This document shows, one piece after another, positions 4,075 to 6,710 of a DNA stretch of 48,775 nucleotides. Position 1 is the first letter of the stretch, and each line of letters begins with the position of its first letter. Under the pieces are notes generated by a model that was not told where the DNA came from, did no database searches, and saw only the letters and a list, made by a program, of their open reading frames with translations. A program made the translations under genes and the position numbers. The DNA is from Candidatus Hydrogenedentota bacterium (GTDB taxonomy: Bacteria; Hydrogenedentota; Hydrogenedentia; Hydrogenedentales; JAEUWI01): contig JAEUWI010000031.1 of NCBI GenBank assembly GCA_016791475.1, positions 1-48,775 of the forward strand, written 5' to 3'.

Positions 4075-4452
4075 TCAGTCTTCTGAAACCGTCTTGGCGG
4101 CTTTCTTCTTCGCGGGTTTTGCCGGCGCGTCGCTTTCTGCCTTGGGTTCCTTGGGCGCCTTCGGTGCCTTGGCGGGCTTGTCCGCCTTCTCCGCCTTGGC
4201 GGGTTTCTCGGTCTTGGGCTTCTTTTCCGCTTTAACGGGCGCGACTTCCTCTACGGAGCAATAGATGCTCTTCGTCGCTTCCAGCAGCGCGCCCAGCTTC
4301 ACCAGACCGAGTTCGCTTGTGTCCACGCCCGCCTTGCCGGCCTTCTTCACGAAGCTCTCCCAGGCTTCGTGGTCCCACTCACCCTTGCGCTTGATAACAA
4401 AGTCCCCGGCAAGCGCCAGCACGTCGCGCACGATGTCTTTCTTTCCAGCCAT
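4075..4452 (-). CDS. Protein with Lys/Ala/Pro-rich histone-H1-like tail
   Basis: This 125-residue protein has a folded-looking N-terminal part (residues 1-68) and a low-complexity C-terminal tail built from repeats such as KAEK, KAPK and PAKPAKKKAAK, ending in an acidic TVSED. Such tails resemble histone H1-like DNA-binding proteins, so nucleoid or nucleic-acid binding is a reasonable inference but is not shown. GAGGAG lies 8 bases before the ATG. A TGCTATTAT extended -10 element lies about 145 bases upstream and a terminator follows the gene, giving a likely single-gene transcript. Confidence 0.75.
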   Translation of the reverse strand: MAGKKDIVRDVLALAGDFVIKRKGEWDHEAWESFVKKAGKAGVDTSELGLVKLGALLEATKSIYCSVEEVAPVKAEKKPKTEKPAKAEKADKPAKAPKAPKEPKAESDAPAKPAKKKAAKTVSED

Positions 4453-4684: not shown

Positions 4685-5617
4685 TTACTGCAGCCAGCCG
4701 AAGGGTCCGGCCGTTTCGTCGTAGTTGTACTGAAATTCCGTATACGCCTTGGAAAGGGGGGATTTGCCGGGATACTTGATGAACTCCACATGGCCGTCCA
4801 GGTAGAGCACGTTGCCGCCGCCCGGCTTGTGGTTCATGTTGTTGGAGTTTTCAGAGTCGTCCCACATCACAAAAATGGTGCTCGCCGCCTCGGCGCTGCC
4901 GCCGGGATTGTTGATGTCCGTGATGAAGAAGCGCTCAAAGCCCTGGCGGATCAACTTGGAGCCGCCAAATTCCTGACTGATGTAGGCAGGGTCGTTGTTC
5001 ACACCCCAGTTGGTCTGGATATTGGTGAGGATGAAGTTCTTCATGGCCAGCGTGAACGCGGGATTGAAGTCGCCGGTGGTGGGACTCGCGTTGAAGTCGC
5101 CCGCGTTGACGCGGGACGGGTCATTCAGCAGCAATTCGTCCGGCCAGTACCAGGCATAGTACAGATACGATTTGTTCTCGAGATCGCAGGCGTCGATGCC
5201 CTGTTTCGGGTCGTTGTTCAGGTTGAAGCGGCCGTCATACCAGTCGTCGCCGTCGGCATCCGAGGGGCAGCGCCAGATCAGCACGTCCGTCATGTATTCG
5301 GGATAGATCGACGGGCCGTCCGGGCACTGCTGAAACTTGGAAGAGTAGCGGCGATCACATTTTGAAAGGCCCGGCACGAGCGGAGCCCCATTGCGAAATT
5401 CGTCCCAGAGGTGGTTGGGGGGATACTTCTCGCCTTTGGATTCTGAAGAGTACATGTAGAAGATCGTACTCATCTGCTTGAGGTTATTCTGGCAACTGGC
5501 GCGCCGGGCCGCTTCACGGGCCCGTGCCAGGGCAGGCAGCAGTATGGCCGCCAGGATGCCGATGATGGCGATGACCACCAGCAGCTCGATCAGGGTAAAA
5601 CCCTTTTTCCGCAACAT
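4685..5617 (-). CDS. DUF1559-type pseudopilin (type II secretion/pilin-like)
   Basis: From the ATG at 5617 (AGGAG about 9-10 bases upstream) the protein is 310 residues. It opens with a class III signal, [17 protein letters not shown], having the prepilin peptidase cleavage after G6 and the conserved Glu at mature position 5, followed by a hydrophobic assembly helix. The C-terminus has the [11 protein letters not shown] motif typical of the planctomycete DUF1559 family. Such proteins are often encoded alone and in many copies, with unknown cargo. No pilus or secretion assembly genes are in the window. It is divergent from birA. Confidence 0.9.
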
Positions 5618-5814
5618 GATTACTGTCTCCTTTGGATGTATTGCACGATGAAAGTTCGCGGGGTCCGGGGGGATACAGCGTTCCTGCGATAAGAGCACAG
5701 GTGCCAGACTACCCGCACGAAAAGCATAGGGGCAGCCTGTTAGCCCCGTGTGTGCCCCCGATTCGATTTCAAATGGGAAACAGGGCAGTGCGGCGCCTTC
5801 TCCCCGTGAAATCG

Positions 5815-5823
5815 TGCTATGAT
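5815..5823 (+). promoter_or_regulatory. Extended -10 element TGCTATGAT for birA
   Basis: TG-C-TATGAT lies 45 bases before the proposed ATT start of birA, in the divergent region shared with the pseudopilin gene. An identical nonamer lies before the GHKL ATPase gene at 41462-41470. Confidence 0.5.
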
Positions 5824-5868
5824 CCCGCCCGTGCAACTGCGGTCCCGTGACGCGCGAGGAGAGTCCCC

Positions 5869-6618
5869 ATTTTTTCATCCACCATTCAGTTCCTGCCGGT
5901 CGAGTGGCACGATTCACTGCCTTCGACGAATACGTATCTAATTGAACGCGCAAAAAACGACCCGCAGACGCCCCACGGCGCCGTGGTCGCCGCGCGGGCC
6001 CAGACGGCGGGACGGGGACGGCAGCAGCGAAGCTGGATTGCCGCGCCAAACGAGAACATCACCGTGTCGTTCTTGTGGAACGCGCCGGTTGCCCAGGAAT
6101 ATGTGCCCTCCATGGCCCAGGCGATTTCGGTGGGCATCTGCGCGGCGCTGGAAGCCCATGCAGCACCCACCATCAAGTGGCCCAACGATGTGCTGGTCGG
6201 CGCTAAGAAGATCGCGGGCATTTTGTGCGAACGCGTGGTGGTCGACGGAAAAACCGTCATTGTCGCGGGAATAGGGCTGAACGTCAATATGGGCCGGGAA
6301 GGGGCGGAAGCCATCGAGCAGCCGGCCACCTCGATGGCACTGGAGACCGGGTCTGCGTTTGACACCGAGGCGGTGTTGCAGCGGCTGCTCGATGCACTCG
6401 TCGGGCCCCTGAACGCCTGGGCGGGCCAGGGATTTGCCGGTATTCGCGACGCCTACCTGCGGCGCAGCGCGGCGGTGGGAACGCCCTTGCGTGTTCGCGA
6501 CGGAGAGAAGCACACGGCGGGAATTTTCCTGGGCTATTCGGAGCAGGGAGCCCTTGTGCTTCGACTGGACAACGGGGAGGAGCGTGTCTTCTATTCGGGC
6601 GATGTTTCGGGCTTATGA
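5869..6618 (+). CDS. birA: Biotin--[acetyl-CoA-carboxylase] ligase, apparent ATT start
   Basis: This enzyme activates biotin to biotinyl-AMP and attaches it to carboxylase subunits. The catalytic motifs are present: STNTYL near residues 19-24, GRGRQQRSW (48-56, biotinyl-AMP loop) and KWPNDVLVG (catalytic K103). There is no N-terminal helix-turn-helix, so it is the class I, non-regulatory form; about 249 residues. The frame is open from the stop at 5848, but no ATG, GTG or TTG precedes the required STN motif; the first is a GTG at 5983 that would remove it. The ATT at 5869 lies 7 bases after GAGGAG and is the best start. A miscounted T in the run at 5870-5875 is the alternative explanation. 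Confidence 0.9.
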
Positions 6619-6710
6619 TGTCGCGAGCTGTCGCGTGTAGTTTTTCCATGCACACCCGGACCTGATACCATGCCGACCAAGAGGCCCATTGCCCGCAAGG
6701 AGCTTTCCCT

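Follow-up and report, generated by a model that had tools for sequence, protein, structure and literature searches.

Initiation factor IF3 discriminates against near-cognate start codons in bacteria. AUU starts with a good Shine-Dalgarno (SD) sequence are established for the genes infC, pcnB, and cvfC1. E. coli infC starts at AUU behind a good SD (PMC5472188), and the AUU start of E. coli pcnB limits translation (Binns and Masters 2002, as cited in PMC13009471). In S. aureus, the near-cognate starts of cvfC1 (AUU) and ccpN (AUA) are compensated by a strong SD, and in reporters assayed in poor medium, AUU or AUA with an extended SD gave about 10% of AUG expression (PMC13009471). The Streptomyces gene sigR has a GUC start that is repressed by IF3 (PMC5472188).

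Here we describe birA, a biotin ligase gene with a probable AUU start, from a Candidatus Hydrogenedentota metagenome-assembled genome (MAG) of 7.7 Mb in 529 contigs. As in E. coli infC, an SD precedes an AUH start, and the gene is apparently essential. It resembles pcnB as a non-IF3 gene with an AUU start, cvfC1 and ccpN in that a strong SD would make up for the near-cognate codon, and sigR as a non-canonical start outside infC. E. coli infC encodes IF3 itself from a conserved start with an autoregulatory role, whereas the birA ATT is unconserved and no feedback loop is apparent. The cvfC1 and ccpN starts are conserved across species and have been measured, but the birA ATT occurs in one genome. 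In pcnB, a different gene, the start is experimentally proven, and in sigR its regulatory role was proven by experiment, whereas the birA start is read from sequence. A literature search found no paper on a non-canonical birA start. If real, it would add birA to the short list of bacterial AUU-start genes and would leave ideas on translation initiation unchanged. To our knowledge, the Hydrogenedentota are a phylum without a cultured model.

The birA frame and its product

The window, which is the whole 48,775-nt stretch of DNA analysed, lies on contig C31 of the MAG. Downstream of a TGA at 5848-5850, a plus-strand frame is open from 5851 to 6618 (Table 1). Its product matches the profiles BPL_LplA_LipB (PF03099, 1.3e-19) and BPL_C (PF02237, 4.4e-7), and scores 149 bits against TIGR00121 (birA_ligase), for which the cut-off is 83. 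The N-terminal HTH of repressor-type BirA is absent: in the alignment, residue 17 corresponds to residue 87 of the E. coli protein. The presence of the catalytic and C-terminal domains of biotin protein ligases, together with the GRGR, KWPND, and GIGLNVN motifs, places the product in the monofunctional class, and it appears to be a complete, catalytic-looking enzyme. The genome encodes biotinyl/lipoyl-domain proteins, which are likely substrates of BirA. A second PF03099 match, on contig C19, is weak and without the GRGR/KWPND signature, and it appears to be lipoate-type.

Table 1. Features of the birA locus (window positions)
Feature	Position	Strand	Remark
birA, monofunctional biotin--[acetyl-CoA-carboxylase] ligase, 249 aa	5869..6618	+	PF03099, PF02237, TIGR00121
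Extended -10-like element TGCTATGAT, candidate birA promoter	5815..5823	+	inferred from a reading of the sequence
Shine-Dalgarno GAGGAG	5856..5861	+	7 nt between GAGGAG and ATT 5869
ATT, proposed birA start codon	5869..5871	+	single in-frame candidate with SD
T6 run	5870-5875	+	T5 would join GTG 5847; T7 would join GTG 5831
ATT, second in-frame, rival start	5884..5886	+	without SD; aligns with MHF/VQF/VRF of G013/G060/G011
GTG, first in-frame canonical start	5983..5985	+	without SD; STN region would be deleted
Terminator-like hairpin directly 3' of birA	6622..6640	+	2 in region vs 0.9 expected

The first-pass annotation had stated that this frame holds no ATG, GTG, or TTG between the stop at 5848 and the N-terminus that the protein needs, and this is correct. 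The earliest such codon, GTG 5983, lies 44 codons into the frame and past the conserved STN motif. The region before it comprises the conserved N-terminal strand and STN and aligns with five orthologs, and the STN region can also be aligned to the catalytic domain in solved BirA chains. Since this ortholog-conserved stretch would be lost with a start at GTG 5983, the true start must be further upstream. Standard gene callers would truncate the apparently essential birA at this GTG and drop the STN motif.

A gene without a canonical start may also be one that is losing its function. A young pseudogene of this kind, its start codon already gone, would fit the lack of conservation of the start codon and the same-genus genome G003 (94% completeness), in which a birA ortholog of this type is not detectable. 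However, the 249 codons are unbroken, all four motifs (STN, GRGR, KWPND, and GIGLNVN) are retained, the GC3 of 0.74 is typical of genes, and the product is the only recognisable biotin ligase of the genome. Decay of the gene is thus extremely improbable.

Shine-Dalgarno support for ATT 5869

ATT 5869 is well supported as the probable birA start by its SD, by the frame, and by homology. It has a suitably spaced SD, and no canonical codon would spare the conserved N-terminus. The positions given in the first-pass annotation for GAGGAG seven bases before this codon, for the extended -10 45 bases before the same codon, and for the T run at 5870-5875 all hold. The predicted duplex with the anti-SD has an energy of -8.7 kcal/mol, which beats 85% of the ATG starts in a genome sample of 368. 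This value is reached by 15% of the sampled ATG starts and by 2.6% of internal positions. The anti-SD used for these energies was assumed to be the universal one, because a search of the bin for the 16S 3' tail did not find it. The SD match goes beyond chance: when the leader was shuffled, a 6-nt SD preceded an in-frame ATT, ATC, ATA, or CTG by 5-9 nt in 0.1% of cases, and a 5-nt SD in 0.5%. Internal near-cognate codons had a 6-nt SD at the same spacing in 0.5% of cases.

It is quite improbable that translation begins instead at a different non-canonical codon (ATT 5884 or CTG 5893) and that the match at 5869 is incidental. ATT 5884 fits the first residues of some orthologs better, being aligned with MHF, VQF, and VRF of G013, G060, and G011, and this counts against ATT 5869. 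However, neither ATT 5884 nor CTG 5893 has an SD, 22 nt separate GAGGAG from 5884, and the N-termini of the orthologs vary in length.

The TGCTATGAT element, 45 nt upstream of ATT 5869, has no consensus -35, and a sigma-70 scan listed no plus-strand site. RNA structure in the leader is unremarkable (z 0.10).

Orthologs and the origin of the ATT codon

The start of birA differs among relatives. In the same genus, the G001 ortholog (58% identity) begins ATG CCG CCA TTT CGT TTT CTG, with AAGGA 6 nt upstream, and the G002 ortholog (59% identity) begins ATG GCA TTT CAA TTT. Both ATGs lie within two to four codons of the place of the ATT, that of G001 two codons and that of G002 three codons downstream. 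Among the more distant orthologs, G013 has a layout resembling that of the present birA, but with ATG: GGAGGAG-N8-ATG ACG TTT TCA ACG lies upstream, and another ATG is found at MHF. Start candidates are GTG CAA TTT in G060 and GTG CGC TTT, or an earlier ATG, in G011. The first-pass annotation had named close relatives with ATG at this spot as refuting evidence, and for the regulatory claim the comparison comes close to that.

None of the five orthologs needs a near-cognate start, which indicates that the ATT is derived in this genome. It most likely arose by a single G-to-T change at 5871, by which an ancestral ATG TTT TCA would have become ATT TTT TCA. GAGGAG, 7 nt upstream, would position the 30S subunit on AUU 5869. 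There, fMet-tRNA would pair imperfectly with the codon, the good SD would rescue the weak start, and the full-length ligase of 249 residues would result. The yield of BirA may be several-fold below the AUG level, with IF3 expected to discriminate against AUU. From the known biochemistry of AUU starts, BirA is presumably made at a reduced, IF3-sensitive level. We regard as probable a birA translated from AUU 5869, the ATT being derived from ATG.

The main rival to an AUU start is an assembly error. In one form, the real codon at 5869 is ATG and its third base was miscalled; in the other, the T run has another length and joins the frame to one of two upstream GTGs, 5847 or 5831. The first-pass annotation had placed the former at 5846, but it lies at 5847 and is reached with one T fewer. 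A single miscalled base or an indel in the T run would abolish the ATT start. Because both same-genus orthologs have canonical starts, the ATT rests on a single assembly, a MAG in 529 contigs, and a search outside metagenome contigs for a second copy or another assembly of the locus found none. The ATG of the relatives is also as expected from an artefact, and rare starts and assembly errors are probably similar in order of frequency. The same assembly holds at least one homopolymer-linked frameshift, in a split AAA/ABC-type ATPase gene (G000:C4, ~87200-87892, plus strand), where one base shifts the frame near 87580 at CGAAAAAATTTTC, an A6/T4 run. This frameshift is either an assembly error or a pseudogene, so the assembly contains homopolymer-linked errors or genuine pseudogenes. 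Against an artefact, comparable defects are few in about 880 sampled coding ORFs, and a random miscall would mostly yield something other than an AUH codon. The indel versions would start at GTG 5847 or GTG 5831, where the SD is weak or absent, and would leave GAGGAG unused. On balance, an artefact is unlikely, though a serious possibility.

The first-pass annotation had also likened the weak start to the regulatory one of infC. This finds no support in the relatives, with ATG in G001, G002, and G013 and GTG or ATG in G060 and G011. Control by IF3 as in infC would be expected to keep a near-cognate codon among relatives, and here they have ATG or GTG. With the codon unconserved, nothing points to selection for control. 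The AUU start seems to be an uncommon change in one species (or a sequencing error) rather than a conserved control switch. It is very improbable that an IF3-sensitive AUU deliberately sets the level of BirA and ties biotinylation to the translation machinery, alongside infC (AUA).

Genome-wide screens, infC, and the neighbourhood

Near-cognate starts were screened in a 1.25-Mb sample of the genome with 879 coding ORFs, of which the 800 above a set score entered a first count. Twenty of the 800 had no canonical start near the onset of coding. On inspection, with homology checked for part of them, most of these look like antisense shadows, ORFs close to an end of a sampled stretch, or genes whose usable start is slightly further downstream. 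A second screen, for a near-cognate codon with a strong SD where a good canonical start is absent, returned four matches: infC (ATA), birA (ATT), an artefact of a G run (ATT at G000:C3:73167, whose score derives from that run), and a codon within a recombinase gene (CTG at G000:C1:144536, inside a serine-recombinase-like frame with an ATG upstream). Only infC and birA were left as credible near-cognate sites among the roughly 880 coding ORFs. In the second screen, SD-backed near-cognate codons were not enriched as a class over other codons, and nothing therefore suggests that near-cognate initiation is general.

In the infC gene of the same genome (G000:C15:58829, minus strand), GAGGAGG precedes an ATA start. 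Of 28 Hydrogenedentota infC loci, nearly all have a strong SD followed by ATA, ATC, or ATT as the start. Since near-cognate infC starts are found across the phylum, Hydrogenedentota ribosomes evidently accept codons of this kind. The infC starts would probably be misplaced by standard callers.

A prepilin-like DUF1559 gene (window 4685-5620, minus strand) is divergent from birA. In G001, birA directly adjoins a homolog of the small Lys/Ala-rich gene at 4075-4452, with no prepilin gene between them. From this difference in arrangement, the prepilin gene was either gained in this genome or lost in G001.
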